A stretch of DNA of 64,000 nt, from positions 15,948,931 to 16,012,930 of the forward strand of contig CAIIXF020000003.1 of NCBI GenBank assembly GCA_903813345.2. Reading direction: 5' to 3'. Origin of the DNA: Owenia fusiformis. Its lineage: Eukaryota > Annelida > Polychaeta > Sabellida > Oweniidae. A program made the translations under genes and the position numbers. Positions within the stretch are counted from its first letter, which is position 1. Each line of letters begins with the position of its first letter. Below the pieces are notes generated by a model that saw only the letters and a list, made by a program, of their open reading frames with translations, did no database searches and was not told the DNA's origin. Shown here piece by piece: positions 657 to 53,000 of this stretch.

Positions 657-3600
657 GTACGGAAAACAAGCCAAGCTGCTTTACTGGTGCTTCTGGAACA
701 AGAAATACTAAAAACTTGTAAGTAATTTTTCCAAAAAGTTGCTTAAATTAATAGCATTGTTCAGAACTGGGACTGAGATGTTAGGATATTATTTATTGCT
801 GTACTATACTGTGTATGGCATCGATCAAACTGCTCCAACGTTATTGAAATGAAATTCATAGTAGCAAACCAATTATAATTTGACTGTGCTAAATGTTACT
901 TTTTATCTGGATAAAAATATATCAATGAATTACACATGGTTTGAATCAAGTCTAACTGAATCCACTTTAAGCCTCACTCATTTTGAAAACATATTTGAAA
1001 TATCTGTTTTTCCAATGTGTTTATATAGGTGATGTCGAAGAGCAGGTATGTCCAGTCATCTTACGACTCTCCGAGCAGGATAGCATGGACGACTACAGAA
1101 CAGAGGCCGTTGCTGTAAGTATATCCCATAATTTCTATATAGAGCAGTAGGCTTACTAGAAGATTGGGCTCAGTATGAAAGACATTAAATATGATGTACC
1201 ATATTCTCTCTATTGAGTGCACACAGTAAGGTTTCCGAATTCAAATTTAAAATGTTAAGATATTGAGAGATTCCAATAAGCACACATACCAAAAATGTAG
1301 GGAAAATATCTGGATAATTTTTGGACCTCATGAGAGAGAATACGGTAGTTCTGTACAAGAGACATAGATTCTTTTTAGAAGGCAATATAAGACGAGGATT
1401 TGGTGTTAAAGACATGGGTTCTGTAACAAATACATTGGTTCTGTGTCAGAGACAAGGGTATATGAAAGACATGGGTTCTGTGACCTGTGTCAAATACATG
1501 GGTTCTATGTGAGACATGGGTTCTGTGTGAAAGACATGGGTTCTGTGTGAAAGACATGGGTTCTGTGTGAGACATGGGTCCTGTGTGAAAGACATGGGTA
1601 GTGAGATGCTTATAATGACATCATCTTACTACCTTGTCTTTCCAGCAGTGCCCCATGAATGCAACAAATTCTACAATTTAAGGGAAAATAATGGAAAAAT
1701 GCAGACAGCAAACATTTTCAGACATAGTCCAAGGTTCGTAGGGCTGTACATCACCATTTTGTCTTGTTATGTCAAGTCAACAATTGTGGCGGTTGAATCT
1801 ATGAGACCTCTATTGCAGATAAAGCTTTTCCATTAGGGATTTTGTATGACAGTCTGGTTGGTTAGTTCATTGTTGCTTTTGTGAGCTCATGTGATGCCAT
1901 GGTAACAGTCATCACATCAACTCTTGTGTCATAATGACCCTCTCTCCAGCCAATTTCCAGCCAACCCAAGGTCAATACTTGCTACATATTGTTACAAAAC
2001 AAAAAGTACTCATTTGACCTTTATACTGCAGTCATAATGGAGACAACCTTTGCGGGGTCTTCCCTGCAGAAGGATGTAAAGTTGAACTGTTTTTTAGACA
2101 AATTGATAAAACACACCAGACACACTGTAGCATCAGAGATAGGACAGCATCTTTTCCATTCAATCGAGGTTGGGCCATGCAGCCGAATGTAAGCCATACA
2201 ACCAAATTTGCCGATTCAATCTGACGGAGAATGCCGAGTCTCTCTTTTTCGACCAATCAATTAGAGACGTCCTCTTCACATTCATGGTACCCTCGGCCAA
2301 CTTCGTTTGCAAAGAAAATCTTCAGCAGTCTCCGGCTTTTCTTGAGGTATCTTCTGTTGCAAGCCAAAAGTCGACACCTCATCAGAGATGTACACGTGAC
2401 AATGAAGAATTAACGAATAGGTAATTACATCTATGGCTCAATGACATAATTGAAATACTTACTGATAAAGGAAATCAGGGATACACTGGTAGTAGTAGAG
2501 TGTGATCAGACTACGTAAAGCAAAAATTGAAGACTGGATATTAAATGAATTGTCATAGGAGACTGACTAGGTAAAGAGTAGTTCTGTCTACTACTGTCTA
2601 TCTATATTATAGGAAAAAGTACAATTTGTTTTTATGTCATCACCAGAAGTGACATTGTTGTATAGTCTTCAACTTTTTTTTGTGGATAGCGGTTGGTGTT
2701 CAGCTGTTGATGTTCAGCATCTGTAACAAATGGTGGGTGGTGACATTTCATGTTAATCGCTTGTAATAATAATGTGGAATGGAGAAATGGTTTGTATGTT
2801 CACAATACTAGAATGAGTTTATAAAGCAATCATCGGTTCTGATTTGTACCTGAAACATGCAATGTTAAAATAAATTTGGTCATTTAATACATAGGCTCTG
2901 CTAGGTGAATTTTTGTATGGACAGTAAAATCTGACTTATATAAATGCCAATGAGTCTCTCTAAAACTCTTTTGATTAGCAGTTGTGCACAGGTTTTGTTA
3001 ACATACGAGTCAATGGGAGGATGAAAGTATTAAACTGTCAAGGCTGTTTTCATTGAGAGGTGTTCGGATACACAAGTTTTACTGTAATTTCTTTCTGATA
3101 CCTTTTCCAAAACATGCATCATATAATTCATATGTGTCTGTTGGATTTGAATTATGGCAATCAAAATTATTGCTGGACATATAGCATGACATGATTGCTT
3201 GGTTGCACAGTATTGCATGATTTCATATAACTTAGGAATTAAAGCCAGTGTTTTATTGTGTTACATAATATAAATTTAGTTATGTAGGCTGTAATATTGA
3301 GGTTTTTGCTAGGTGTTAATTGCCCAGAAATCGTTACATACACAACTAATGCCAATATTGTCAAAATTAGTGAGGAATGGTAAATGTGTGAATACTGAAT
3401 AATTGCAATTGCAATTTTATTATTAAAGCAGACTGCTATTCCTTGGATGGAAATAGAGGAGACTATGTAAATGATAGGGGATGGAAATAGAGGAGACTAT
3501 GTAAATGATAGGGGATGGAAATAGAGGATACTATGTAAATGATAGGGGATGGAAATAGAGGAGACTATGTAAATGATAGGGGATGGAAATAGAGGAGACT

Positions 3601-6600
3601 ATGTAAATGATAGGGATGGAAATAGAGGAGACTATGTAAATGATAGGGGATGGAAATAGAGGAGACTATGTAAATGATAGGGGATGGAAATAGAGGAGAC
3701 TATGTAAATGATAGGGGATGGAAATAGAGGAGACTATGTAAATGATAGGGGATGGAAATAGAGGAGACTATGTAAATGATAGGGGATGGAAATAGAGGAG
3801 ACTATGTAAATGATAGGGATGGAAATAGAGGAGACTATGTAAATGATAGGGGATGGAAATAGAGGAGACTATGTAAATGATAGGGGATGGAATTGAGAGC
3901 TGAGGGACTTCTCCTTTAGGAGAAAATGGGATATAGTTGATATGGCACTTAAACTGTGGCATCACATGACATTGCCTAAAATCAACAGAACAACCAACTG
4001 CTCATGGCTATAGCACTGAAGGTTTAGAATTATTTAAGGTGGAAAACAAAGACAACACCATGAAACCAAGCTACTATATGTGAACCTAATTGTCTAAATT
4101 ATAAAGACATCTTAAAAATAAGATTAACATCTGGACTAGTTAGGCTTTGATAAAATGGTCGTTTTTATATGGAATTGTATTAAAATGGAATCTGTAGATT
4201 AGACAGTTCATACCAAGGTGGCCATACACATGTAAAACATGGTCACATGCTTAGTTGCTTTATGCCCACCTCAGGCATTTAATGCTAAAATGATGTAATT
4301 GACACTTTGGGTAAATCCTTGTGAATATGTAGACTGATAAAATGACAACTTTCTGAGTTTATTAAATTGAGAATGGGGCATTGAACATTGAACAAGGCAT
4401 GATATATCAATAGGTATGCATGTATACATCAATATTGCCAACATCAAAATGAAATTCCAGTTGGCCAGATAAGGGTATGTAAATTTGAAATTAGGTGTCA
4501 AGAACATAATGAGGTCTCCAGTTTGCCATTATACAGTGTGAACCCTTTGACCTGTGTACTAGTATAGGTTACAACATACTCTCAAATAAAATCTCACTCA
4601 TCATATTCATTTTTAACTGTTTCTCTTCACAATTTAGATATAAAGTTATATACGTTTTTAGATGTTTATGTAATTTAGACTATGGGTTCACATTTAGTAC
4701 ATCAGTTTCTTGGTATTTCCTCTGTTTTCCATCCAAAATTGGATTTTGAAACGTGACTTATGTGATATTTTGTATGTGGGTGCTATTTGTTAAGAGTTGT
4801 GATATTCATTTAGTAGTCAGCTTATAGGTGTCAATTCTTGGTATAGGTGTCAAGGATCAAACAGGTATGCAAGTCATAGATTGGATCATGGAAAGTAGTG
4901 GCTACTTATCTGTTGCATCACATGTTGCATGTGTTGCATCTTATCAAAACCAGCCAAGTGGAGAGAAAACTACTTGTATATACTATATGGGCCCATTGTA
5001 CAAAAGGACTTGTGGGAAATTCATGGATTACATGACCATGCTTTCATATGCAAATCCAGTGGAATAGGAGAATGTAGGAAGAATGTGGAAGGAACCAGGT
5101 CATGTGTAATCAGGTAATAATCATATTCTTATATTGTATACCAAAGTGGGGTTGATATTCAAATCAGTGCATTGAAGTAGCCCTAATGGGACATTATAAA
5201 ATAGCTTTTGTTGTATAGAATTTACAGCTACACTGATTCGAATCATGAATGCATAATGATATGAATGATGCAGTCCTTGCATTAGTCCTTACATGAGTAC
5301 TAGACAGGTTCCAATTCTAATAATTCAAGTTTTTGAGGCATTTTTTAGAAAAAGCAACAGACCTATTTTTACTCGATCAGTTTTTCATGCTGATAAAGAT
5401 ATTAAAAGATGACAGCTCAACGGGGTGGTCACGACACTGAATTTTGGCATGTTTACCCCCCTAGGAAAATATTCTAGGGGGTACTATGAAACTAGTTCAT
5501 AACTCAAAGGATATATGAGCTATTGTTCTGAGTTGTACACCATACATTGCTAGTACAAATATGAATACTATCCTAAAGTTATAGGTTGATACCCTTATTG
5601 GTCTCAGAAAAAATACAATAAACAGGAAAAAGATACGCAATTTTTGTCTTGCCAATTTTATATTTGTAGCTTCAAGCAAAATATGACAGCTTTAACAGCT
5701 CATAGTAGTATTCTAAAATCATTTCCAAGCTATATGGGGTATTGTAATACATCTATTTTAGTTATGAAGTACTATTTTGTAATTTTAATATGACTTTATA
5801 GTCCCCTACCCCTGGACAATTGAAGAAAATGGATGTGGTGAATTTAATCATTTTGCAGCATTAAGTTAGAAACATGTATTGATAGACACCAAATCAATAA
5901 ATCTATACCATCATCAAATGTTAGGTGACATTCTAATTCATTTATTATTAGAATATAGGACTTAAGATATTTTATATGTAAGTTTTCAATTTAGTACATG
6001 TATCATAATGAAATCTAGTGTAATCACATACTAGAGAGGACATTGACATAAAGTCTAAACATTATAATCATCAATTGATCTCATTTGAGCAACTAGACTA
6101 TGGTGGTCACCATGCACAAGTAATGTACTACAGTGCCCTATGTACTAGGGCACGAGTCATTTGAGCCATATATACCTCCTGGTATATACCTTTACAACCC
6201 ATTCAGAAGGGTCATTTACAATGTGCAAAACATGGCAAAAGTTCCATAAAACTGTTAGTTCTCATCATCTGACCATATAGCAGAGTCCTCATTAAGCCAT
6301 GATGCACCACAGCCAGATGTTAGAAAAGTATCTAAGAATCTTTTTTATTAACCAAAGATGACTTTCCCACCGATGTTGCATCACACTGTACTGTCAACTG
6401 TACATATTGCTTTCAATTTCGTTTACTCTACATAGATCTGATTCTGCATTTAAATACCAAGACTTCAGTTTACTTCAACTGTCACGACTAAAGCATTTGA
6501 TAGTATTTACATAATAATGTTATAAAGGAGCATGTAGGTTATCGCAAACAACTTCAGACAATGGTCCTTTTTCCATATAGCTTTGAAATCTCGTTAAGGT

Positions 6601-9600
6601 CTTGTTTTTAATGAGATTTTAGGAGATCTGCATTTTTAACCATTAAAAACTAATGTTTTCTTCCGTCTGATGGCATATTTGAATTATGTGAGTAATTCTC
6701 TATCAAAACAACTTTGATTTGCACTGTAATTTACCATTATTCAAATTCTAATGATTTACTGGTTGTCTAAAAAAGGTCGGGCTAAATCCCCATTGACACA
6801 ATGCTGAAAAACCTTAAAAAGTTCATTTACTCTTCCAAGGATCACAATTTTAATGCGAAATCACAATCCACATGTCAATAAGATCATAAAGTTACATTCT
6901 AATGATGTTTTAAGTTGATCCAAATGGAATTCCTTCTTAAATCAAGAAATTAAGTGACTCTGGCAATACATTTACATGTATTCTAGCCCTACCCAAGCTC
7001 TACCAATACCCATGATACCATCTATTTTTCATCTATATGGAAAAAGGTCATCTAACTTGAATTATGAATATTTTCTGACCATGAACATAGGTATGTCTTT
7101 TAGATCTATTCATTATCTTCAAGAAAAGTAAATATAATGAATAATCAGACCTAAGTGATATTAAAGGGAATGGCCCAATCAACATACTTTTTACTAAAAA
7201 TGATGACCTAGTTTTTACCAAAGATACAACCTTTAATTATATTGTTGAATGCATAATTAGAATATGCTTTGAGACATGTTCTATTTCCTAAGAGGAAAAG
7301 TGGATTGCTCCAGGGACTTTAAAGACACTGAATTTGGATGACCAAAATGAACTGAAACCAATGGATAGCATGAATTTTTTCAAAGGGGAAATAACATGGG
7401 GAACACTAATCTTGGGGGAATTCAGTTTTCGTTTCAAGAGCTATTTGATATATTAAAATAAAGAATAGTAATGCATGAAACATTGTTAAAATGATTGCAT
7501 TTTTGGTGAAAATGAGGTCAACAACTTTGAAAAAATATATTGATGGGTTGATTGCTAGTGAAATATCTCCGAGTCCGATTGACTTTATTATCCCTGTCTT
7601 CATGGTCAGGAAATAGTCATAATCAAAGATATAACTGTCTGAAATTGTTTGTGATAACTTACCTGAACATTTGCAGGTCAAATCAGGAGTGACACAATTT
7701 ATTTCCACCAAATTTTTGACATGTCTTCAAATATACGATAGTATTTTCCTCCTAAGATAGAGTGTCACTTGTGAAATTTATTGATTGACCTGAGATCGTA
7801 TCATATCTTTATGAAATAGAAGCGAAATAGCCATATTGAACTTTAATGAATGTTGTTTGCCACTTTTCGACAATTTCGTCAAAATTTGGGGGTTTTGGGG
7901 GAGGGGTACAATTAGGTTAAAAAATTCACCTGATTCAGACTATCCTTAAATGAGCACTGATTCACCCGAGAGCATAACTTTTCCAAAACATGTTAGTGTT
8001 ATTTTTGGAACACTCACATTAATGTTTCGTCTAATTTTCCCTCAGAGTTTCCTCATCATTGTCTTAGGCCATATTTGTTGAGATATATGAATGTTCATTA
8101 TTAAAATCTTGCCTTCCTTTGCAGTTGGAGAAGACTCGGCATTAGGTGTTATAAGTCCCAGACCACGATAAATAAAAATAACAACACAATGACATAGAAC
8201 TGATAAACGTTTTCTCTTGTGCGTGTCAGCCATCGGTCTACCAAATTAATTGCTATTCAGTGGGAAGAAACTCATTTTTCAGTTTCCATTTTAATTTCCT
8301 GACAAATAGAGCGATCATCCCAGCATTTTTTCTATATTCTATATATCTATGTGCCTTAGCAACTTCTGTTTTAGAGAACAATAAAAAAATAGAAAAGATT
8401 ACTTTACCATAATTCTAATCATCCCACATTGTAGACATATTTAGAATTAAAAATATGAAGAGAATGACAAAACCTCTTAAAACACATTTCTTAGGAAACA
8501 AATAGTGTGGTATTCTTGTTACTATGGCAACAGAGTTTTTTCTTTTTGTCATTTTTGTCATACAGATTACCTATCATACCAGGACCAAATCCTGAAAATT
8601 TGAATTCAGTATCTTCATTAGTATCTAAGATATATAGGTTTCTTATAGTATCCCCTGCAGATTTCATCGGAGTATAAGGAAAATGCTCTGAAGAGGGATG
8701 CCCAAGGATGCCACTTAACAGTTCTGGTATTTTTAAGGTCCCAACCCTCTATTCATGGGAATAGTTAACCATTGTAAAGGTACTCATGGTTAACTGACAG
8801 AATTGATTGTATCTTCAACTAAGAAGTCAATAAAATGTTAAAACCAGAAGAAAACCACACCAACTTTCTTCTATTTACCAGGGGTAGGGCATTATAAAGT
8901 CATATTAAAATTACAAAATAGTACTTCATCACTATAATAGATGTATTACAATATCAAACATAGCTTGGGAATGTTGTTAGAATACTACTTTGAGCTGTTA
9001 AAGTTATCATATTTTGCTTGAAGCTACAAATATAAAATAAACAAGAAAAAATGACAATAATTGCATATTTTTTCTAATTAATTGTATTTTTCCGAAACCA
9101 ACAAAGATATCAACCTATAACTTTAGGATAGTATTCATCTTTGTACTAACAATGTATGCTGTAGAACTCAGAACAATAGTTTATATATCCTTCGAGTTAT
9201 GAACTAATATTATAGTATCCCCTAAGATAATTTCCTAGGGGGGTAAAAACGCTAAAATGCAGTGTCGTGACCACCCCGTTGAGCTGTCATCTTTTAATAT
9301 CTTTATCAGCATGAAAAACTGATCCAGAAAAAATAGGTCTGTTGCTTTTTCTAAAAAATGCCTCAAAAAGTCTTTCCCTTGAGATATTCTGAAATTGGAA
9401 CCTGTCTATACATTTTGGCAACTCTAGTTATCTACACTGAATCATGGGAAGTGTGTTTCTGAGATACTTGGAAATTCGAACTCTGAAATTCTACCGAAGA
9501 GATATGTCTGACGTGTACAAGAGATACGTGTGACTTAGGAGTCACTGCTGGCCGCCGATAGTGACATTGACCTATCACAGCCAGCATTGATGAGCCTAGT

Positions 9601-12600
9601 TACATTGCAGCTCCACCTATTAGTGTCTTCTGCAGAAGCTGCGTCCTTGACCTGCTTTTGACACTCCATCTAGTGGCAGCTATTATACAAAGGAGTAATG
9701 TATGAGAGAAATTATAAAAAGGGTAGAAAATGGAAATAACATAAGCCTAATAACAACTTCAACTACACTAGCATTTTTTTGGTCTGCAGGCTTAATGTTC
9801 TTCGATAGATTCAGTTTCTAGGTCCCCTATGGACATATTTAAGGGAACTACCCCTTGGCCTTCCAGCTTTCTGCACTAAATCCAAAAAGCTTGCTTTCAG
9901 GATAACAGCCATGCTTTTCAAGATATTGAAAAAAAAACATTTGGGGTGCTTGCTGCAGTTTTTGACATGAGAGGGAATGGTTCTCAGAGCTTGCTTTTGC
10001 TAATGCCTTATTCAGTTATGTCCAAGTCGCTGTGAAATGCCATGAAATATAAACATATCACAGCGCTGCTTGGATTTCATTGGGTAGCGGCGCTTTGCAT
10101 TCTATGTCAGTACTGAACTGTTTGTATGTCTTTGTCCATTTAAAATAACAAAATGGCTACAGCTCTGTAATTTTAACACCAACATTATGGAGCCCAAAAT
10201 GTTTTGTTTTTGGATAAAATGATCACACACATATAATGATATTAACAGAGCAGCTAAAATCTAGATTGTGATGATATGGCTTACTGCTAATCAAAGCTAC
10301 TGCTCATCTTAAATGTCAATAGTTTTGTGAAATATGTAATGATGAATAGCTTAACATAATTTATAGACTAAAAGTTTATATGTACATGTATAAAATTATT
10401 GCAACAACGGAAATATTAAGGTTGTTTTCTCAAACTCTTTTTAACTGGAATTTCATTCATTAATCAGTGTGCCTGGAAAAAAGTCTGAAAGCTCTTTACT
10501 AGGTTCCTAAAACAAATTCCAGGGGTTCGTTTTAGCCTATTTCAGCAAGGTTGATGATTTGGGCCAGTTGTATGGGCATCAAATTGGCTGTGAAATGTTC
10601 TTACATTTTCATATCACAGCCAGCTTTGATGAGCCACACATGGTTAGTTTGCATCATAAAAGGTTTCATCACAAAGTTTGGACCATTGCATAAATTGGTG
10701 TACCACACAAAGCCATAACGGTTTATAATTCAATATGAGCTTTGTCTTGACTTGTTTTCTGTTTAAAAGATGAATATATATTCCTGTCTTGACTTAGTAT
10801 CTGTATAAAAGATGAATATATATTCCTGTCTTGACTTGTTTTCTGTTTAAAAGATGAATATATATTCCTGTCTTGACTTAATTTCTGTATAAAAGATGAA
10901 TGTGTATTCCTGTCTTGACTTTGTTTCTGAATAAATGCTGAATATATATTCCTGAAAAAAGCATTGGTATATTGAGGGCAACTGAATGAGGGTATGTTTT
11001 GTTACTTTTGTACTTGGTCTCAACTTACAATTGAGGAACTCAAGGCATATGTAAAATAAGGCATTATTCTTCATGATACCCATTAGGTAGATTTGATATG
11101 TTTTCTTTTCTCATATCACAGCTAGCTTTGATGGGCTTCATGTTGATATGACAACAGCATTTTTCTCATTGTGTTGTCACATGTTCATATGACAACAGCA
11201 TTATACAGCTATGTGGTGTCACTTGTGGCTTAGCTTAGATGAGGATGAGCTAATATTTGTCCCCAGCACTTGTCCCCCTGGTTATATAGATGTTACTAAC
11301 AAAATGAACTTCAGTCGGAGGAATTTTGATTTTCATTATCTCACCAAGAAGGAGGTCAATTTGTATCCAAATATTTTACCTGAATGTTAATAGAAACATA
11401 CGGATAATCAAGTTAGAATTCCCTCACTACAGCAACCAAGACATTATCTGGTGAATTTCATAAAATCTTGGTTGCATTGCGTTGTGTTGGATGTGTACTC
11501 GCGATTGCTTAATTTTTCGGTAACTGGATGCTACTCTAAACATATGGATGTTAATTCTGTATTAACACAAGCTAATTCACTCCTAGCTTCGCCACCATTT
11601 GGTGAGTTTTTATATGTGCCATTAAGTTGAGTGTGAAATGTGTGTGTCTTTCATATCACAGCCAGCTTTGATGAGCGCATATGATGCTTTTCATTCTACA
11701 TAAGGCTAAGCTTCGCTACTGCAGCCTTTCCCCAGGCTTAATCTTGGCAGGGTACAAAAGTCTTTATTTTACCAATTCTGAATAGAAATGAGGATTTTAC
11801 ACATACAGTAAAACTTGTGTATAGTGAACATTTTTTTGCCAAGAAAAAATGTTCACTGTAGGTAGGTGTTCACTAGAGAGAGGGTAATTTATACAGAAGT
11901 CAGTGGACTATGTGCGTAGGAAGGGTGTCCACTAGGGACAGGTGTTCACTAGAGAGAGGTGTTCATTAAGACAGGTTTTACTGTATTAACAACTTATTTT
12001 TGAAAAGATTGTTGTGAGAACAAATCAAACATTGTGATATGCATGTTTTGGATATTGAGATGAGAATATACTTCTATTTTCCAGATAGATATTTCTAATA
12101 ACTATACATACAATATTTGCACAGTACATGTATTTGCCATTACTTTATACCATGTACATAACTACATAACTGGTATCTACCATCTGAAGTAAATAATTAC
12201 AGCCACTGATAAAACCGGTGTAAGTTTCAAGAGTTCCCATGTAACAATACAAATAACTGATAGCATTTGCATTGAACTCTTGTATTAACGATGAATGAGG
12301 AATATTTGTGTCACAAATAAAATCCCTTTGAGACCTAAAATGACAGATACAGGGTGTCCCAAAAAATTGTACTAACACAAACATATGTGAGGAATATTTG
12401 TGTCACAATGAAATCCCTTTGAGGCCCAAAGTGACAGATACAGGTTGTCCCAAGACAACATAGAATTACTCTGTCAGGAATCATGATGGAATATTCTTGA
12501 AATGATGTCATCTGACAGACAATTATGTCATCTGACAGACAATGATGTCATCTGACAGACACCATTATCATTAAGATCTGAAAATTTCCCCAGGTAATAT

Positions 12601-15600
12601 TAGTTTGTTTTAGAGAAAATATTGTTTCAGTAACACCACCCATTTTTATGTCACCACCACAAGTGGTTACATATTGTTATAGTCTCCAACTTTTTATGGT
12701 CAGTTTTTGGCATTTGGCGATCAGCATCTGTAACAAATGCCAGGTGGTGACATGTGCATGTTAATGCCTTGTTCAATGTTTGGAACTACCTCTCCATATA
12801 TTCTGATGATATATATGGAGATTATTTAGAATATGTATAACGCTTTTAATCATGTATCGTTGAGATTGATTTTTTGTTTATGAATATATTAAGCTTAATT
12901 TTTGCGCTTTAGGGCTGTGACAGGACTATTTATTATAAATGATGGAACTATAATAAGATTTTATTTTCAGTATATCCTGGTGCCATAAGTAATAAGTATA
13001 ATGGATGAACATTATGACATGACTAGAGGAAACACAGAACAATTTCCTGTAAATCATTATCTTTATCAAGGTGTCAAGATGGAATATTACATTATCTTAA
13101 CAAGAATCTGTACTAGGCACGCGGATCTTGTCTATCCACACTGACACAGCGGTTGTTGGCCCTATACTTGACTGATGATATTGAAATAGGGTTCTGCCTT
13201 TTCATTGGTCAACACTTTCGGGCATCCAAATCATTTTATGTCACCACCAGAAGTGGTGACATGTTATCATAGTCTCCTTTTTCGGGACAGTGTTGCTGCA
13301 TCTGTATCACATGACAGGCAGTGATATTTTGCACTTTGAAATACATTGTTCTTCAGTTAATGTCCCACAGTGTCTGCTCTGAGACTCTTCAAAGGGTATT
13401 AAGAGGCTGTCGAACCAACAATATGCAAGACCCATTTTTCAATTTTTTATGTACTTGTACTTGAATGTACAATTAAAACATGCAGCCATTTGTTTTCTAT
13501 AATGACCCCATAGATGGAGGGCATTTCTTGGAAGGAAATATGGTCTGCCCATGTGGCATCAAAGTGGTTGAGATTATGTAGTAATGATCATATCACAGCC
13601 AGCTTTGATGAGCATATGGGTAGACATGACAACATTCAACCAGCTCACATGACATCTTCATTCTCAAATGCAAAAGCACTCATTTCATTTTAGGTAACAC
13701 AAACTCGTTTCATTCCAGGAAACATCTTGATTCTCAAGTTATACATGTTATAACCACCTTGAAAGTCAAAGATGTCTAGGAAATGTGGAATCTGTCTACC
13801 ATTTTTGAGTTTGAGGTTTTTAGAGATTCTTAATTCATTTCCAATGCCCAGACTTTGAACAAAGGCTGTCAACAAATGGAAAAGGACCACATTCACCCGA
13901 AAACGACTGTAAGGTTTTTAAAAGGCACTTTGCTAGAAAGGCACTACTTTGGAAAGGTATAATGCGAGAAAGACACTATGTGTACTATGCTGAAAAGGCA
14001 CTACATTGGAATGTATGCTAGATAGGTTCTGTGTAAGAAGGCCACTAATATACTAAAAAGGCATTATGTTAGAAAGTATTATTATATACCCAATATGTAA
14101 CACTAATCCTGATTGGTCAATACCTAGTCACGTGTTCCGAAATAGATTTACTATTTCCCTCGGAAAGTTATATTCCCTCAAATGTGACGTCAGCGGGAAT
14201 ATACATTTGAACTATTGCCCGCTGACGTCACAATTGCAAGCTCTATTACCCTTGGAAACGTCTGCTCATCATCACTGCGCAGACGAAAAACAGAAAAATG
14301 GAGAATGAGCACAAACACAAATCAACTCCGTTCACCATGACAGACGTGCGTGAACGATACAATATAAGCAACGTGTATAAAGTTCCCTAAGCTCAATACG
14401 TCTGTGTAATTTCAAGTGTTATGATAATCTATTCCGCGTGTTAAACGCGATTGAATTTGTCAAGTGAGAGTCTCAGAGGCAAAAATTTCTGTTGAGCATC
14501 TGATGACGTCACAGCTTATAATGCTAACAATGGACCCGGGGAGGGGGCTTTCTAAGCCTTTTTGGCCTTCGCAGAGGAAACGGGACAAGAGTCAGTATAG
14601 GGTATATAATAAAACAAATAGTGACTGCCTAATTTCGAGCAATAGTGTAAATGATTTCCCCTTGGGAATATCCTCTACAATATACTATTCCCTCAGCCTG
14701 CGGCTTCGGGAATAGTACATTGTAGAGGATATTCCCTCGGGGAAATAATTTACACTATTGCCCTCAATGGCAGTCACTATTTGTATACTGTGCTTGAGAA
14801 GCAATACATTGGAAAGGTATTATACTAAAAAGGCACTTTGTTGGAAAAGTATTAAGCTAAAAGGCACTTTGTTGGAAAAGTACTATGCTCAAAATGATCT
14901 ATATTGAAGGTGTTATGTAAGAAAGGCGAAAGGCACTATGTTTTAAATGCACTGTGCTTGAGAGGCAATACATTGGAAAGGTATTATACTAAAAAGGCAC
15001 TTTGTTGGAAAAGTATTAAGCTAAAAGGCACTTTGTTGGAAAAGTACTATGCTCAAAATGATCTATATTGGAAAGGTATTATGTAAGAAAGGCAAAAGGC
15101 ACTATATTTAAAATGCACCATGCTTGAGAGGCAATACATTGGAAAGGAATTATACTAAAAAGGTACTTTGTTAGAAAAGTACTATGCTTGAAATGCACTC
15201 TATTGGAAAGGTATAATGTATGAAAGGCGAAAGGCACTATGTTTTAAATGCACCATGCTTGAGAGGCAATACATTGGAAAGATATTATACTAAAAAGGCA
15301 CTTAGAAATGTACTTTGCGCGAAATGAACTATAATTGGAAAGGAATTATGTGAGGAATGCTTTATGTTTTAAATGCACCATGCTTGAGAGGCAATACGCT
15401 AGAAAAGTATTATGCTAGAAAGGCGACAGACACTAAGTTAACGAGGCACTATGCTAGAAAGGCACTATACATGGCTCATGAAAGTGGCTGTGATCTGATG
15501 CTATTGTTACCATATATATATATTATACTAAAAAGGCACTTTGTTAGAAAAGTACTTTGCTCGAAATGCACTCTATTGGAAAGGTATAATGTATGAAAGG

Positions 15601-18600
15601 TGAAAGGCACTATGTTTTAAATGCACCATGCTTGAGAGGCAATACATTGGAAAAGTATTATGCTAGAAAGGCACTTTGTTGGAAAAGTATTATGCTAGAA
15701 AGGCGGCAGACACTGTTAGGCACTAGAAAAGCACTATATATGGCTCATGAAAGTGGTTGTGATCTGATGCTATTGTTACCATATCACAGCCTGCTTTGAT
15801 GAGTTGTGTGTAGTAAATAACACTATCCTACAAATGCAAGACTCCCCAAAAGCCAGAGTACCTTCAAGTTATTTCCCTTTTGGAAGAACGAAGATGCTTA
15901 AGAAAAACGCTGATAATAGCTCTCAGAGGATTTGTCCGAATTTATTTGTTAACCCATAATATAAAATAACCAAATAACGGAACATCTGGGGTCTTCTTAT
16001 ACCTAGTCGTGATAGAGACACTAAGTACTAACACACAATCAACAAATGAATATTTTGCTGTTAAATACTCAAAACACACATATACTCAAGCTCAATACTC
16101 AAACTCATGTATATATATTACTGGTATATTGTCTGTTACACCAGTTTGCCTCCTAGTTGGTTTATCAATGGCACCAAGTTTTTTTGGACATGCTATGTCA
16201 ATATAATCCAGATATGGTGCTTTATACTCATATTACATTTTTATAACATTATTATGTTTTGTTTATAAGTATTTGTTTATTAACATAATATTAGACTTCG
16301 AGTAAAAAAAATGTTTTTTCTGCTTGCAGCTAATGAGTAAGATGGCGCCACTTGTAGGCTGTGATGTCACAACACGCTTGTTCCTTCCACGGTTTAGTCA
16401 CATGTGCGGAGATGCTTTGTTCCATGTTCGGAAGGTTTGCATGAACTCTTTCTTATGTCAGGGGTTATTCATTTCAACCAAAGCCTTCATCTTTTGGTTG
16501 ATAAATTGAGGGCAAGAAAACATGTACAGTCTTAGTGCTTGATCTAGTAACCTATAATTTACATGGTTACTATGTATTTAGGAATTTTTATAGCTCTAAA
16601 ATGTTTTGTTATTCAGGTTAATTTTTCCCAGCATTGAAGAGCTAGTAGATGCTGCATATATTTGGAAATATGAAAAATTGTCACATTTTGGTTTTTAGCC
16701 CAAATTTTGAAAATGGAAATTTTGCTCATACTTGATGAAAAAATTCCGGGAAAAAGACTGGTATCCCTGTTACCCCCTTGTAATATACGAGATATTCTTA
16801 ATAAAGTGTATATTGGTTTCTTTTATTTTTTAGGTATGTGCTGCCAACTTTGGAGACATGTGCACTGTTGTTGGCTCAGAGTCCACACAAGATATATTGG
16901 TGAGATATATTTCTATATACTAGGTCGATCAATAAGTTTTGAGAAAAATATGAATGTGTGTGTATGCCAAATTTGATTAGGCTGTTACCTCTCAAATTTT
17001 ATAAAAAAAGATAACTATGAAGTTTCTCTATTCCTTGATTTATGTTCAAGTTGTTTTCTTGGAAATAGATACATGTCTCTATAAAACTGCCTGATTGTCA
17101 GGTCGATTTCAGGTTCTGATGTTTTATTTTCATTGTTTTCAGCTTGATAAGTTTTTCCTCCTGTGTGAGGATGGAGTATGGGGTGTAAGAAAGGCCTGTG
17201 CTGAGTGCTTCACTGCTGTCTCTCTGGCTTGCAACCAAGGGATACGTCATAAAGACCTGGCACATATATTCATTAGTCTTATATCTGACCAGTCAAGATG
17301 GGTAAGTCCATGAACAGTGGGGACATTTATGGGGTTGGAATGTGGGTAAGTCCATGAACAGTGGGGACATTTATGGGGTTGGGCTATGGGTAAGTCCATG
17401 AACAGTGGGGACATTTATGGGATTGGCGTGGGTAAGTCCATGAACAATGGGGACATTTATGGGGTTGGGCTATGGGTAAGTCCATGAACAGTGGGGACAT
17501 TTATGGGGTTGGGCTATGGGTAAGTCCATGAACAGTGGGAACATTTATGGGGTTGGGATATCGGTAAGTCTATGAACATGGGGACATTTTTGGGGTTTGG
17601 ATATGGGTAAGTCCATGGACATTGGGGACATTTATGGGGTTGGGATATGGGTAAGTCCATGAACAATGGGGACATTTATGGGGTTGGGATATGGGTGAGT
17701 CCATGAACATTGGGGAATTAATGGGGTTGGGCTAATAAATCAATGCATCCTGGTCAAATTTGAAAAATCTTAAAATATTGCACTAAAATTCGCAAAATCG
17801 CAAAATCCTTTGCTCAAACAATCCTGTGTCGTGACACTGGAAATATACATGTACATGTAGTTTTAATTAACTTTACAGTTGATTTTTGCTTGGAACTTGA
17901 GTAAATCATTTACAAAATATGACAATAGAAATTAATACAGTAATTAAGAAAAAACTACTTTTTTACTTAGGTACGAATGGCTGGATTCCAAGCTCTTGGT
18001 GGGTTTATTTCAACATTTGCTGATCCCAATAGTACTGGACTCTTTTTTAACGAAGAAGGAAACTTATGCGTCGGCGATCAAAATGTCCACAGGTAATATT
18101 ATATGAAACTTTCTCGTGGTCTAACTTTGTGGTCCATTGTTATATTACGAAAACTTTCTTGGAAATGAGCTTTTAAAAAGCCATTTAGGTTGTATCCATG
18201 GGTACAAAGACAAAGTGGAACTCTGGAAGGAGTTTTTGAACGTCTGCATACTTTTACATTTGTCAGTGTGAGCTCTTATATATTTTTTATTTATTATTTT
18301 TATATTTAACATGCAGCTATTCAGAAAAAGATGAAAAATTGACAGTATCTTTTTTGATTACTTAAGAATAACTTTTATCTCTTTACACTCTGTGAAAATA
18401 TAGTTCATAGTAAGAGTCAGCAATAGTGCAGATCAGATAGTATCTCACAATAATAGTTACGAAATGATCTCACAATATTAGTTCAAAAATGACATAACAA
18501 TAATAGTTCTACAACAGTTGAAATTCATTGAAGGGAAGATCGATATTTGTACCCATTTGTGATAGGTGTTCAGACATTTCTCTCTAATGATGACAGATTA

Positions 18601-25360: not shown

Positions 25361-26861
25361 ATATAGAAAGTGAGTCTGAGATGACATATTGAAGCCCCCC
25401 CCCACATATTCCAACAAAAACCTTTGTTTCAACTTGGACATTATCCCATCATCTGCCCCAGATACCACCAATAACATCTTCAGAATAATACATTTCGATC
25501 TATAGAATTTATGTGGACTTATACTGTTCAAATGAAAGATGCACATCAACCAAGATGTCTTATGGGATTGATCAACCCAGAGTGACTGCAGAGGAGGTGT
25601 ATCAGTCATCCCAGGTTGCACAGTAGAGGAGGTGTATCATCAATATGGCACATGTTTATCACATACTTAAGTGTAGAAATTCAGGAATCTGGGAATATAC
25701 CTTGTTTCAAAATAATGGATTCAAAACTACTTCTTAAGTGAAATAAACATCACTCTTTTCAAGTTCATTTCTTTATATCACTCTATATATGTATAGACCT
25801 CATATATGTAATATATCTTACCCCATAATTTTATGTGGATGAAGAATTTTGAATGTGACTGAATGAGTGAATTATTGAAGGAAGAACTTGAGGTGGGCCA
25901 AGCAGATTAAATACTAGTAAATCTAGATGATTAACAAGAGAATAACAACGTTCTATGAGGCTTGTTTGCTTAAAATCATGAACACGAATATTCCGAACTC
26001 TTGGCAGTCTGGAGATGAAATACAGTAAAACCTGTTTTCTTAAAACGCCTGTAGATCTGTGTCAGATTAAAGTGGTGTTTAGATATACAGTCATTACTGC
26101 ATCTCAGCAATTTGAACTCTTGGTCCACCTTAAGAGTCTGGAAAACTTTATATCTATTATATTAACTAGCTCTCACTATGGCTGTGTTGTCCTGTATATT
26201 ATTATTATTTCATATTATGTAGAGTATATCAATGATGTTTCACCCTTACAGATATTTTGATTATGGTGCTTGTTATTAAAGGAAGTTATTTTCCCTATGC
26301 ATCAATTCCCCCATCCTCCGATCACAGGGCTTCAAAATCCAGAATATCTTCTTTCTTTTTACCACCTGCGATAAGCAGTTAGCATTTCCATGATTAAGAA
26401 CTCGCAATTTGATTCGCTATCGCAACATTGCAACAGCAATCATGTATATCATGCGTCATCGGCACATAAATAGATCACATGATTCAGTTTTATTGGGCGC
26501 TTCCAAATTGGTTATAGCAGGGGGAAAGAAGGAGGTACGGATTCTGGACACCTGCTTAGGAGGATGCAATTCACCTGTTATATTTGTTAATATTTAGTTT
26601 ACAAATCGACCTATTCTCAACAAGATACATTTGCTTATTGTCTGTAAGAAAGATCAGGAGGTTTTGCGCTGTAACATTTTCACCAAAATACAACTTTATG
26701 AAAATAAAATAAAGAATTCCATTGTGGAATATTTGTAAGGGTGAGATTGGAAGAAGATGTCTCATTTATAGAAAGTGTTCCAAGATAATACTGTAATACA
26801 TGTACATTTTACTGAAAATGTTACTGTACTGTATTTTTAAACATTATTTTAAGCAATATTA

Positions 26862-26964
26862 TTAGTCTAGCCCTTGTGCCCCCCCCCCTCCCTAAACACC
26901 CACAAGGTGAGAAGGTGTTTAGTCTAGTAGGGGTGGGAGTCGCAGAGTCTTGGAGCTAGACTAT
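26862..26964. repeat. Small inverted repeat with a C-rich centre
   Basis: TTAGTCTAG at the left faces CTAGACTA at the right, with a poly-C tract near 26880 between them. It is possibly a degenerate MITE. Confidence 0.45.
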
Positions 26965-28786
26965 TATTTGTACATCTTATCTGATTTAAAGAGTTAATTT
27001 AGAAGCGATGTAACTTGTGAGTTTCTCTAATAAATCTTACTTAAATGTGATCACTGAAGAAATCATGACATGAATATTATTTTAAGAAGATTGACTAATA
27101 TATTTTTTCTGTAAAGTATACTCTCCATTTATTACATTATATCCTTTGGTTCCTAGTCTCCAGTTAGTGTAAGGCCCTTCCAAATTACAAGTTTGTTTAG
27201 TGGTGTATACCCATAATTCTAGATATTTGTGCATCGACAGATTTTTTTAAATCAGACTAAACAAGAGCCATTTACAAAACTTTATATAGTTAAGAATTCC
27301 TAAATGAGTTGGAGTCATTCTATGAGAAAATGGCTCCAGAAAAATGAACTTGAAGAGTTTATTACTTTTTTTGAAGTTCATGCCCCTGAAGATTAACTTG
27401 TAACGGCCTCAGATATGCAGTATACACTATATTTTTAATATTCCCCTGTGTTGCCAAATTGTATTATGATATGGGACCATATGTTGCTACTTGACTTGAA
27501 GAATGCGTTGTGGATGACATTAATGTCATTAAAAAATGTATGTAGAAAGAATTTAATTTTAATTCAGTAATGGATCACAAAGTATTGATTTTGATGTGTA
27601 TTTTGATCGAGTGGTACATCCTATATGGAATTATTTGCCATAAATGAGTTTTGACTGCATATTCTCTTACTAATTCTCAATACCCCATAATATCAACAAT
27701 TGAATAGCTTGTTATTAACAGTTGAAAATTTTGTTGGAGTTAACGCAATTGATAGAAGATTCAATGTTTTATTTAGACTAACAGGAATGGCTTTGTTGAA
27801 GAAATGATGAAATGTGAATAATTAGATTGAAGAATTATTCCAAAATTGAAGAAAAACATCAATTGTATGTGATATATGGGTAAATGTGATGATACAATGG
27901 TTAGTTTGTGTTTAATGGAAAAAATCATAAAGACATTGTATTCAGTGCACTGAGTTTGACCATAATATAAATTATGTCTAAATAAAATTGTAACTATAGC
28001 AATTGGGGGAGAATACAAGAAAAACACTATGACAACTAGAAAACACTGATGGCAAAATTAAACAGATAAATCAGTGTCATAATGGGTTAAAAAATTGAAA
28101 TGATTAATTAGAAGTTCAAATCTGTTTTAGCTCGTTGATGTGTTGAAAGAATAATTTCAGTTCAATTATTTAATGCTTTAATGGAATCTGTGTGAGTGTG
28201 GAAATTGGTTTTGAAAATAGAATTTTGAGTATTAAAAGTTGTGTAGTATTTATTTTGAGTTTTCTTGCACATGTGTCAATGTTACCTTGAGTATTAATGA
28301 CTCGGGTATACACAGCTTAGATTGTATTATATATTCATATAATTGTACAAAACATATTTTTATATATAAAGTATGTCTTTCAAATATAGGAAATTTCAAT
28401 CTTGTAAAATATGTATTAAAAGCTTGAGCTTGTTTCTACATCATAATGCCCTATGGTGCTTGAGTCAAATTGATAATGATGCCATAGCAACCATGTATCA
28501 TTATTGGTATCCATGGAGATAAGGATAGCAGTCATGTGATTGGTTGAATCTGTATCAAGAATTAAGAGAAAAAATCGTGTGTATCAGTGACATTACTTGA
28601 ATTATAAAATATTTGTATAATATATTATAAATAATGGACAATAAAATGTTTATTCCAAATAAATAACGATTTTTTGTTACTAATTACCATTTTTGTATAA
28701 GATTGTAGATACTGAATACTAGAATTTGATAACCATGCTGAATGAATATTTCTGAAATTTTTTGAAAACCTATTCCACTTAATTTT

Positions 28787-34029: not shown

Positions 34030-34876
34030 TACAGTAAGCTCTCCGTTAATAGAACACATTTGGCATCACAAAACATTTGGCAAGTGTTCCATTTACAATT
34101 TACAGAGGCTCATTTAACTTAACATCAGTCATGGGAGGCTGAAGTGTTCCTTATATGGGGGTGTTCCACTTACAATTTACAGAGGCTCATTTAACATAAC
34201 ATCAGTCATGGGAGGCTGAAGTGTTCCTTATATGGGGTGTTCCACTTACAATTTACAGAGGCTCATTTAACTTAACATCAGTCATGGGAGGCTGAAGTGT
34301 TCCTTATATGGGGGTGTTCCACTTACAATTTACAGAGGCTCATTTAACATAACATCAGTCATGGGAGGCTGAAGTGTTCCTTATATGGGGGTGTTCCACT
34401 TACAATTTACAGAGGCTCATTTAACATAACATCAGTCATGGGAGGCTGAAGTGTTCCTTATATGGGGTGTTCCACTTACAATTTACAGAGGCTCATTTAA
34501 CATAACATCAGTCATGGGAGGCTGAAGTGTTCCTTATATGGGGGTGTTCCACTTACAATTTACAGAGGCTCATTTAACATAACATCAGTCATGGGAGGCT
34601 GAAGTGTTCCTTATATGGGGGTGTTCCACTTACAATTTACAGAGGCTCATTTAACATAACATCAGTCATGGGAGGCTGAAGTGTTCCTTATATGGGGTGT
34701 TCCACTTACAATTTACAGAGGCTCATTTAACATAACATCAGTCATGGGAGGCTGAAGTGTTTCTTATATGGGGGTGTTCCACTTAAAATTTACAGAGGCT
34801 CATTTACCATAACATCAGTCATGGGAGTCTGAAGTGTTCCTTATATGGAGGTGTTCCACTTGAAACTTTTACTGTC
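34030..34876. repeat. TACAGTAAA-type MITE whose interior expanded into a 77-bp satellite
   Basis: The outer ends are TACAGTAAG at 34030 and ACTTTTACTGT ending at 34875. Between them about ten units of 76-77 bp repeat almost exactly: GTTCCACTTACAATTTACAG, AGGCTCATTTAACATAACAT, CAGTCATGGGAGGCTGAAGT, GTTCCTTATATGGGG. Confidence 0.92.
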
Positions 34877-49517: not shown

Positions 49518-50034
49518 TTGCAGTTGAACTAAGTAGGTTTGTTTTTGTTCATTTGTTCGTACATGTATATGTAATATATTATATTATTTAATTATGGCTA
49601 AATCCAGTATTCTGATCAGTTAATGTAGTACCATATGATCAAAAATACATATTTCATACTTCCTTCAATTATAAATAACCTCTAAAAGAAGTATTGCCCA
49701 CATACTTATGGGTACTGATTATAGGTAAACAAATATTTCATTGGCCCTTTGATTCTAACCATCTAATTTCATCCAATACCTGTTCTACTTCCAATGACTT
49801 TTGCAAGAATACAACTTGTTAAAATTGTTTAAAGATAAACAGGCATTGCACTCTCTATAGTCCAATATTTGTTAATTGTTTCTCTTTAGGTCATTAAAAT
49901 TTAATGTTTAACGCCCCTTCTCTCTAATGTACATCCCCTGAACATCTTAACAGCCACAGAAATATTGAATGTTATAATTATTTTCAGGTGAAAATTGCCT
50001 GTGCTCAAAAGATTGTGACATTTAGCCAGAAAGC

Positions 50035-53000
50035 ATGATGGAAGATAATGATAGATCTGCATATATTGTGAAGCCCATTATAGATATTCAAGATGATCAG
50101 GGTGAACAGGCTAGCGGTACCCACGCCATTGACAATGAAGTTGATATCAGCTTTGAAATGGAAGGTCTGAACTCAGGCCAGGATGTTGATTTTGATCGCA
50201 TTGATATTGATGAGAATATTGAAAAGTTTGTTCAAGAACAGAATGATGCTCTCTCTAAGCAAAACACTGATGCTGTCCCAGAGCCAGATAAAGCCATTGA
50301 AACTGTCACCGGAGCACTCACTGAATCAGATAAAGCAAGTGAGACTGTGACTGATGCTCCTCTAGAGCCAGATAAAGCCATTGAAACTGGGACTGATGCT
50401 CATCTGGAGCCAGATAAAGCCATTGAAACTGCCACCGAAGCACTCTCTGAATCAGATAAAGCTAGTGAGACTGTGGCTGATACTCCCATAGAGCTAGCTA
50501 AAGCCATTGATACTGTGATTGATGCTCCTCTAGAGCCAGATAAAGCCATTGAAACTGTTACTGAAGCACTCTCTGAATCAGATAAAGCTAGTGGGACTGT
50601 GACTGATGCTCCTCTGGAGCCAGATAAAGCCATTGAAACTGTAACTGACGCTCATTTAGAGCCAGATAAAGCCAGTGAGACTGTTACTGAAGCTCTTCCT
50701 GAATCAGATAAAACCATTAATACTGTGCCTGATACTCTCCCCGAGCCAGAGAAAATAATTGTGACAGATGAAATGATTAACAATCCTGGACAGAAAAATG
50801 ATGCATTAGAAGATGATGCAAATTATCAGATTGGTACTGCATCCTTAAATACTGATGTAGACATGAACATTGGAGAATCCATCAAGGTGACTGAGGCTCA
50901 TATTGAGGATGGTGCTTGTGACAGTGAAACTATTGGAGATTCAAAATCAAAAAATGGTAATAATGTTTCAACATTCATCCCCCAGGAAGATTGTACTAAT
51001 GAAAATGAAAAAATGTTAACTGAAGATGACCCCCATGTAACATCAGTCACACTCATTGTACCTGTAGGGGATGACATTCAAGGGAATGATGTCATAGACA
51101 CCAATGTTAATACTCAAAATAACACTACATGCGACACTGATACCTCTGATGGGGTCGACCATCAGGAAAATGATCAACAAATGATGATTGAGTCTTATGG
51201 ATCCATAGCAGATTCTGATCATAAAGGCTCACTTCTTAATCAGTATGAATTCATGGAATTGAATAATGAAGCTGACGACACCTCTAGAGTTGATAGTCCT
51301 TCAAACTATAAAGTCAACTTGGAAGAGATGAATGATGTCAACCTTGGTGAGACAGTCGACTTTGAGGATGTTTCTGGACAAAGGGCACCATTGGAGATGA
51401 AGGTGGAGTTCATTACCCCACCACGACCTGAAATGTCTCCAACTAGGCACAACATAGTAAGTTATGTACTTGGTACATCTGAAATGTCATAAAAAATAAT
51501 TATCTTTTCAAATATTGAATGATGGAGAATTTTCTTTTGTAACAATTTTTGACATGGCTTGTGTTTTTACTATATTAGGAAAGTAAAGCAAACCAATATT
51601 GTGTCGTTAAATGATTAAATAGTACTTGTTTATTGCCTTCTGTTATATTCTTGTCAAACTTTCTTCAGAGTATGGCCCATGACCTGGTGGACTCTCAGCC
51701 ATTTGTTCTTTTGCATAACATCAAGAAGTCCCCAGGAGGAATAGAATATGGTATCCCACCTGCTACAAGCCATGGTACCATACCTGCCTCATTACCACAT
51801 GCTCTTGGCCTGCAAAGGTAAGACTTCAAATATCATTGGACAATATTATGAGTCTTTTGTCATCATTCTCTCATTTATTAAGTGTCGGCTTGAGGAATGG
51901 GGTGGATAACATTAGGATTTGATAGAGCAGCTTTAGTCGGAATAATGAAGCACAATAAACAGTATTCAACAACATTCCAGTCATTTCATTTACAAATCCC
52001 CTAATTCATTATGCATGAATGAAGCCAACTCTTTGAACTTCAAAAATATTCACACTTCAGCACAAGATAAGAAAATGCAAAAACCAAGTAAACCAAAACT
52101 CATCACTTGATATAAATGAATGATGTCATTAATTATTACTTTTTATAAGTCATATATATGCAAGTCTTCATGGAAAAAGTCTGCATTCAGGGCTTGAGCT
52201 AATGAGCTGGGAACAGCTTGTCAAAATGGGCCACAGACCAGATACGATGTTATTTCCCTATATTCCAGTATTCAATAATAATAACCTTGCAATAGACCAG
52301 CTTTTAGCTCAAGCCTTGTCAACGTTACCTTGTCAGATTTTTCCTTGCAATGCATGTGGCCAACCTTATAACCTTATACAAGAATGAATTTTTATGTTTT
52401 TAGTGTCCAGAGCCATACCTCTCAACCCCCACCCCCAAGTCATAAAGTAGGTTATAAATGTAAAGCATGTGGCAAAGTATTTGCCTCAACTGATAGCATT
52501 AAAATCCATGTCAAACTTGTTCACAATCAAAAGGTTAATGCCTCTAGCACATCAAAACCTAAAGCTAAAACGCATAAGCCCAAACCTCAGAAACAAGTAC
52601 AAAGACTTTATAATTGTAAACAGTGTGGGAAATCATATAAAACAGCAGTCGGATTTAGTGAGCATAAGTACATTCACAGGGTCAAAAGAGAGAAGATAAC
52701 ACCGGTAAGCCATCCTTACAAATGTGAGAATTGTGTTCAGAGATTCGTTTTTAAACAAAGTCTGTCCAGACACATTGAAAGAGCACATCCACTTTCAAGA
52801 CCAAATAGACGACACAGGGATCCAAGTAAACAACTTGCAAAATTACCACTGAGGGTAAAAAGTTATAAATGCAAAATCTGTAGAAAGGGATTCATGAACT
52901 TAGCTGGGCAGATATCACATACAAAGTTCTGTGAAAAGGCCAAGAAAAGTGAACAGAAGAAACGTCAACAAATGTTAACACGCTCCAAGCCCAAACTACT

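Follow-up and report, generated by a model that had tools for sequence, protein, structure and literature searches.

How far can the spacing of an ancient microRNA cluster change while its address in the genome is kept, and is such a cluster transcribed by its host gene or from promoters of its own? These questions are raised by a 64,000-nucleotide stretch of the annelid Owenia fusiformis genome (GenBank assembly GCA_903813345.2, contig CAIIXF020000003.1, positions 15,948,931 to 16,012,930 of the forward strand; hereafter the window), in which one miR-71 hairpin and seven miR-2 hairpins lie in a single intron of PPP4R1. We regard it as very likely that the locus represents the ancient miR-71/miR-2 cluster of protostomes at its original address, stretched by repeats and accompanied by two minisatellite events that arose from its own hairpins. 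Coordinates of all features and the numbering of the miR-2 hairpins are given in Table 1.

The initial annotation had described one miR-71 and seven miR-2 hairpins in sense with, and inside one intron of, PPP4R1, and Rfam matches, predicted folds and our gene model all agree with that description. Folding of each precursor, which the annotation had proposed as a check, shows all eight hairpins to be far more stable than shuffled sequence. The motif TATCACAG occurs at 11 sites in the window where 2.94 are expected, a count that none of 100 shuffles reached. Each of the seven plus-strand sites from 9573 to 15782 falls in a hairpin's 3' arm, and UAUCACAG stands at the 3'-arm start of a stable hairpin in all seven miR-2 copies (fold z-scores of -3.6 to -6.5 in both cases). 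The other four TATCACAG sites (31596, 37196 on the minus strand, 56442 and 58831) are attributed to chance, as their folds, with z-scores of -0.6 to +2.2, are no better than shuffles. The Rfam mir-2 cut-off of 45.5 bits is passed by three of the seven hairpins (10572, 13552 and 15741); the mir-2 match of the hairpin at 10014 has an E value of 0.16, and miR-2 hairpin 1 matches only mir-2_2, at 9526-9606, with 28.4 bits against the 94 required (E value 0.13). Hairpin 2 carries TATCACAGCGCTGCTTGGAT and resembles miR-2d of oyster and limpet (lgi/cgi-miR-2d) in the tabulated part of PMC4941716, where the oyster miR-2b that hairpin 4 resembles is also listed. The 23 nucleotides from 1586 (UGAAAGACAUGGGUAGUGAGAUG) are identical at 23 of 23 positions to the printed sequences of bgl-miR-71-5p from the snail Biomphalaria and of the 23-nt form from Daphnia. 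By homology, the mature 5' ends are predicted at T1586 for miR-71-5p and at the TATCACAG starts for miR-2, in agreement with those first noted. The order of miR-71 followed by the miR-2 copies on one strand is as given in the cluster sections of PMC5121899 and PMC4244043. Several further stable hairpins are found in the intron within the transposon, the foldback or the arrays considered below, and no known seed was recognised in the rest.

The host gene model comprises 18 exons, of which 16 are in the window and two lie a short way before its start. Joined at AG/GT sites, they encode 993 residues in a single frame; the model stops short of the gene's 5' end. The eight hairpins share the plus strand with the gene and are located between the exons at 1029-1114 and 16330-16434. 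The host intron measures 15,215 bp, compared with 136-1,607 bp for the other 16 that were observed. In Pfam, the 993-residue product matches HEAT (82.2 bits), PPP2R1A-like HEAT and WRNPLPNID, and the best solved relative of a 138-residue part is PP2A-A, the PP2A scaffold subunit (E value 1.7e-18). Judged by these matches, the host is a HEAT-repeat regulatory subunit that is related to yet distinct from PP2A-A, and we take it to be PPP4R1 from the Pfam and structure matches together with similarity to human PPP4R1.

In order to assess whether the cluster is present elsewhere, the 498-Mb assembly was searched, with family searches scoring the best candidates (60 of 66,745 for the mir-71 search and 60 of 155,227 for a second search). 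Among the 60 candidates scored, this locus alone exceeds the mir-71 cut-off, with a weaker match to the opposite strand of the same locus. When up to three mismatches are allowed, the mature miR-2 sequence has six matches in the genome, all of which are within the cluster, compared with one for the reversed control; the seventh hairpin is the divergent hairpin 2. As far as these best-candidate searches show, the miR-71/miR-2 cluster is a single locus in the assembly, although further copies beyond the candidates scored are conceivable.

The cluster spans 14,229 bp, and identified repeats account for 6,946 bp, or at least 49%, which is a lower bound given that repeats were sought as tandem arrays, one transposon and similarity to a stretch designated L001 and to window positions 16330-64000; the total counts the transposon as 5300-9411, which is 8 bp too long. 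Nearly all of the repeat sequence (6,734 of the 6,946 bases) falls in three long gaps of 7,889, 1,871 and 2,123 bp, and the four gaps between miR-2 hairpins 1 and 5 measure 408-488 bp each. The initial attribution of the spread to transposon and satellite growth is therefore supported for about half of the length, and no origin was recognised for the remainder. By contrast, only 222 bp separate let-7 of this genome from a hairpin of the mir-10 family, which we take to be mir-100, and therefore stretching does not affect every microRNA cluster of this genome.

The largest single insertion listed, at 5303-9406, has inverted arms that are 88-89% complementary and TA at both borders. Its left arm is 97-100% identical in 39 other copies scored (the best 40 of 727 candidates, self included), and a second full-length copy shows 98.3% identity across 4,141 bp. 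In all 10 of the other copies read at this end, TA stands directly before the first base of the arm, and it may be a target duplication or part of the ends. No DDE transposase was found in 5303-9406, the sole stop-to-stop frame of at least 90 amino acids being one of 106 amino acids without a Pfam match, and autonomous relatives were not sought; the transposon thus looks non-autonomous. It is young and present in many copies, and although its TA-bordered terminal inverted repeats (TIRs) are as in Tc1/mariner-type transposons, it is classed no further than as a non-autonomous TA-bordered TIR element. The second dispersed element contains a foldback, an 80-nt part of which folds at -51.8 kcal/mol and on which a sub-threshold Rfam MIR5200 match (14649-14751) falls. 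A short dispersed element (TTTTATGTCACCACCAGAAGTGG..) also recurs at 70-85% identity, both in the intron at 12643-12773, 2629-2768 and 13225-13283 and elsewhere in the window and at L001 7076-7224.

Immediately upstream of the miR-71 hairpin is a 20-bp minisatellite whose core, TGTGAAAGACATGGGT, corresponds to a 16-base stretch (1584-1599) in the 5' arm of miR-71, such that the arm itself forms a tenth copy. The array units at 1526 and 1546 match the core at 16 of 16 positions, and the count of nine units rests on a chosen cut of 11 of 16 matches. There are four exact sites of TGTGAAAGACATGGGT in the genome, three of which are within these 200 bp, and 15 sites within one mismatch, five of which are within the same 200 bp (the arm counted in each case). 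The 10 near-sites elsewhere represent background, as the reversed word yields 13. Snail and Daphnia share an identical miR-71-5p, so that the arm must predate the array and the array derives from the arm. The minisatellite adjoining miR-71 is thus made of the microRNA's own 5' arm, and this is the new part of the case, modest but odd. It indicates that tandem duplication can be seeded by a pre-miRNA arm under strong conservation with the hairpin retained. A literature search on minisatellites with pre-miRNA or primary microRNA found, in the titles or abstract openings of the papers listed (15 of 673 and 10 of 15), no report of a microRNA arm seeding a minisatellite, which is not proof of absence.

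A second such event, which like the first had escaped the initial annotation, is apparent at the far end of the cluster, where both miR-2 hairpin 7 and a half copy of it are located in a local minisatellite field. The half copy (15454-15515) has an AT run in place of the 3' arm, and a query of 15454-15812 finds this locus as its sole match in the assembly. The half copy is not predicted to compete for the genuine 3' arm of hairpin 7 (0.008 versus 0.845). When hairpin 14-mers were examined for recurrence within 500 nt, 24 matches were obtained for miR-71 and 32 for the last miR-2 hairpin (overlapping positions, not separate copies), none for miR-2 hairpins 1, 2 and 6, and 6-12 for hairpins 3-5, which are attributed to nearby sister hairpins. 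None of let-7, mir-100, mir-9 and mir-124 of the same genome has a hairpin 14-mer that recurs within 500 nt; these controls are four of six microRNA loci, two weaker mir-10-family hits having been left out, and two further hits are reverse-strand duplicates of loci in this set.

Given that minisatellites are common in the host intron, the likeness of the 20-bp array to miR-71 could conceivably be a coincidence between unrelated sequences. However, the 16-base core is exactly common to two units and the arm, the nine units at 17-27-bp spacing run directly into the arm, and matches to TGTGAAAGACATGGGT elsewhere in the 498 Mb are at background level, such that chance is nearly excluded. Derivation from the arm leaves the question of whether the array also acts on its source. 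Repeat RNA could fold on the 5' basal flank of pri-miR-71 and lower Drosha access, with unit number tuning output, and we consider this improbable. For the 12 nt beneath the lower stem, the probability of being unpaired is predicted to be 0.50 when there are no units and 0.28 when there are nine, and array stretch 1480-1559 folds by itself with a z-score of -4.4. Nevertheless, the change in openness is modest, reaches a plateau at five units (0.27-0.28 from there on) and varies with the choice of stretch (0.10-0.34), and the array affects neither the lower stem nor the canonical hairpin of miR-71 in the predicted fold. An effect of the array on flank openness is therefore a weak prediction. 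Competition of the array units for the miR-71 3p arm is not predicted either; in folds of 1340-1700 and 1200-1900, both of which contain all units, mean pairing of the 3p arm is 0.90 with its genuine 5p partner and 0.00 with the units, so that the predicted hairpin would be left undisturbed. A bolder extension, which we regard as a long shot, is that the mature arm of a conserved microRNA seeded a minisatellite that grows against its own precursor, with unit number possibly altering Drosha access to pri-miR-71 and with antisense units forming a chain of miR-71 sites. If this were true, a microRNA of great age would have given rise to a regulator of itself next door.

As to what transcribes the cluster, the initial annotation had suggested dependence on PPP4R1 transcription, a suggestion favoured by co-expression in oyster and disfavoured by reporters in Caenorhabditis elegans. 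In the section of PMC4138081 on the oyster gene, the miR-2 genes of PPP4R1 correlate with host expression, the largest of six r values being 0.93. In O. fusiformis, an intronic promoter for miR-71 would have little room because only 465 bp separate the hairpin from the upstream exon, 176 of which are array. In our judgment, it is somewhat more probable than not that the host drives transcription of the cluster, at least in part. Alternatively, the cluster may be an intronic passenger with one or more promoters of its own, in which case miR-71 and the miR-2 group would be independent of PPP4R1 and perhaps of each other, a possibility that we hold only tentatively. According to the relevant part of PMC2835999, C. 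elegans mir-71 and mir-2 are located in different introns of ppfr-1 and have separate promoter activity, the regions upstream of each driving their own GFP patterns that are unlike, or partly overlap, that of the host; the mir-71 pattern overlaps that of ppfr-1 in part, and that of mir-2 is mainly neuronal. Several points weigh against the picture of a host-transcribed ancestral cluster stretched by repeats. One shared transcript is not a given here, because of the different introns and promoter activities just described, and the 7.9-kb gap between miR-71 and the first miR-2 hairpin provides ample room for a separate miR-2 promoter. In addition, about half of the 14.2 kb consists of no recognised repeat, and four of the seven miR-2 hairpins fall below the Rfam mir-2 cut-off and are seen at a looser threshold.

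It had also been suggested that PP4 activity is tied to miR-2/miR-71 output, and this is unsupported. No 7-mer site for miR-71 or miR-2 is present in 25361-27500, taken as the PPP4R1 3' untranslated region, and negative feedback on PPP4R1 was accordingly rejected. The coding sequence contains two miR-2 7-mers where 0.4 would be expected (P 0.049, with no correction for the five patterns examined), a weak signal on which no claim is based. Separately, GGCTGTGAT at 16359, in the exon directly after the intron, is complementary to miR-2 nucleotides 2-10 (P 0.079, codon shuffles).

With the ancestral cluster in a PPP4R1 intron as the preferred reading, a sequence of events can be proposed. The intron would be transcribed in sense, Drosha would excise each of the eight hairpins singly regardless of spacing, and splicing would yield PPP4R1 mRNA, with miR-71-5p and miR-2-3p expected by homology as the mature products. 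Because the hairpins would be excised one by one, constraint on their spacing would be weak, and repeats would therefore have accumulated, chiefly in three gaps: the recent 4.1-kb TA-bordered inverted-repeat transposon, the second dispersed element and a number of minisatellites. The 20-bp array at 1404-1579 probably arose by slippage that involved the 5' arm of miR-71 together with its flank, and growth of the far-end array probably duplicated the last miR-2 hairpin, leaving a copy without its 3' arm.

Table 1. Features of the miR-71/miR-2 cluster and its host intron (window coordinates)
Feature	Position	Strand	Details
PPP4R1 exon 5' of host intron	1029-1114	+	ends ..TEAVA; AG/GT sites, open frame; HEAT matches
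Host intron	1115-16329	+	GT-AG, phase 0, 15,215 bp
Minisatellite, nine units	1404-1579	+	~20-bp units, spacing 17-27 bp; 11-16 of 16 identical to TGTGAAAGACATGGGT
miR-71 hairpin	1580-1650	+	Rfam RF00832 70.8 bits (cut-off 50); fold z -6.3; 5p start 1586
Putative non-autonomous TIR transposon	5303-9406	.	4,104 bp; inverted arms ~500 nt; ends GACAGGTTCC; TA borders
miR-2 hairpin 1	9540-9605	+	3p start 9573; fold z -3.6; no Rfam match above cut-off
miR-2 hairpin 2, divergent, miR-2d-like	10014-10083	+	3p start 10056; z -4.3; RF00047 29.3 bits, below cut-off
miR-2 hairpin 3	10572-10638	+	3p start 10612; RF00047 64.6 bits; z -5.2
miR-2 hairpin 4, resembles oyster miR-2b	11076-11140	+	3p start 11114; RF00047 37.0 bits, below cut-off; z -5.0
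miR-2 hairpin 5	11615-11680	+	3p start 11654; RF00047 43.6 bits, below cut-off; z -5.3
miR-2 hairpin 6	13552-13617	+	3p start 13591; RF00047 60.3 bits; z -5.4
Dispersed element	14079-14787	.	96% identical to copy upstream of window; holds foldback 14632-14768
Foldback	14632-14768		arms of 67 nt with 87% complementarity, 3-nt loop; in the gap separating miR-2 hairpins 6 and 7
Local minisatellite field	14787-15722	+	periods 16/32/71/135/164 bp
Half copy of miR-2 hairpin 7	15454-15515	+	flank, 5' arm, loop; 95% identical to 15723-15784
miR-2 hairpin 7	15741-15808	+	3p start 15782; RF00047 54.9 bits; z -6.5
PPP4R1 exon 3' of host intron	16330-16434	+	starts LMSKMAP..

Further along the host gene, a 44-bp minisatellite of approximately 10 units (17298-17731) starts at a PPP4R1 splice donor (exon end 17301), with GGTAAGT in nine units and GGTGAGT in one. 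Thus, a second functional element of PPP4R1 has seeded a tandem array, and the units may provide decoy donors. Elsewhere in the window are a 77-bp satellite of approximately 10 copies with 97% matches (34084-34861), a frame of 488 amino acids with a 42-bp coding repeat at 50266-50754 (50026-51492), and an open frame of 2,497 amino acids with many C2H2 zinc-finger-like motifs, as read by eye (52372-59865).

Both the home of the cluster and its transposon-linked stretching are already published in kind, the former for oyster and C. elegans and the latter for the cockroach Blattella germanica. The relevant section of PMC4138081 places six mir-2 genes in an intron of PPP4R1 (CGI_10023188) in the oyster Crassostrea gigas and mir-2 in the orthologous ppfr-1 of C. 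elegans, and infers an ancestral address; according to the part of PMC3763532 on its origin, mir-2 arose inside the mir-71 transcript and expanded by duplication. The oyster cluster therefore shares the host gene and the intronic miR-2 tandem series, whereas in O. fusiformis seven miR-2 hairpins and miR-71 extend over 14.2 kb, and that section of PMC4138081 mentions neither miR-71 nor an arm-derived array. C. elegans has both microRNAs in the orthologous host (orthology as stated in PMC4138081), but, by the account of PMC2835999 given above, in different introns, with a single mir-2 and with promoter activity of their own. The shared PPP4R1 address makes the question of host versus own promoter comparable across phyla, and the O. 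fusiformis locus offers a clear case, in an assembly of very long contigs, of this intron being kept as the old miR-71/miR-2 address despite changed spacing. In Blattella, the cluster section of PMC5121899 similarly describes stretching by more than 12 kb, with DNA-transposon-related TIGD4-like sequence in the gap, but there are five miR-2 copies and the host gene is not discussed in that section. The flatworm clusters, as described in the corresponding part of PMC4405270, likewise have miR-71 first and miR-2 after, but are compact, the miR-71a/2 cluster of Clonorchis sinensis being 441 nt. Finally, the intronic cluster of mouse Sfmbt2, in the pertinent section of PMC3212979, resembles this locus in that intronic microRNAs are entangled with tandem and simple repeats; however, the repeats there are described as the source of new microRNAs, whereas here the arm of an old microRNA is the source of the repeat.

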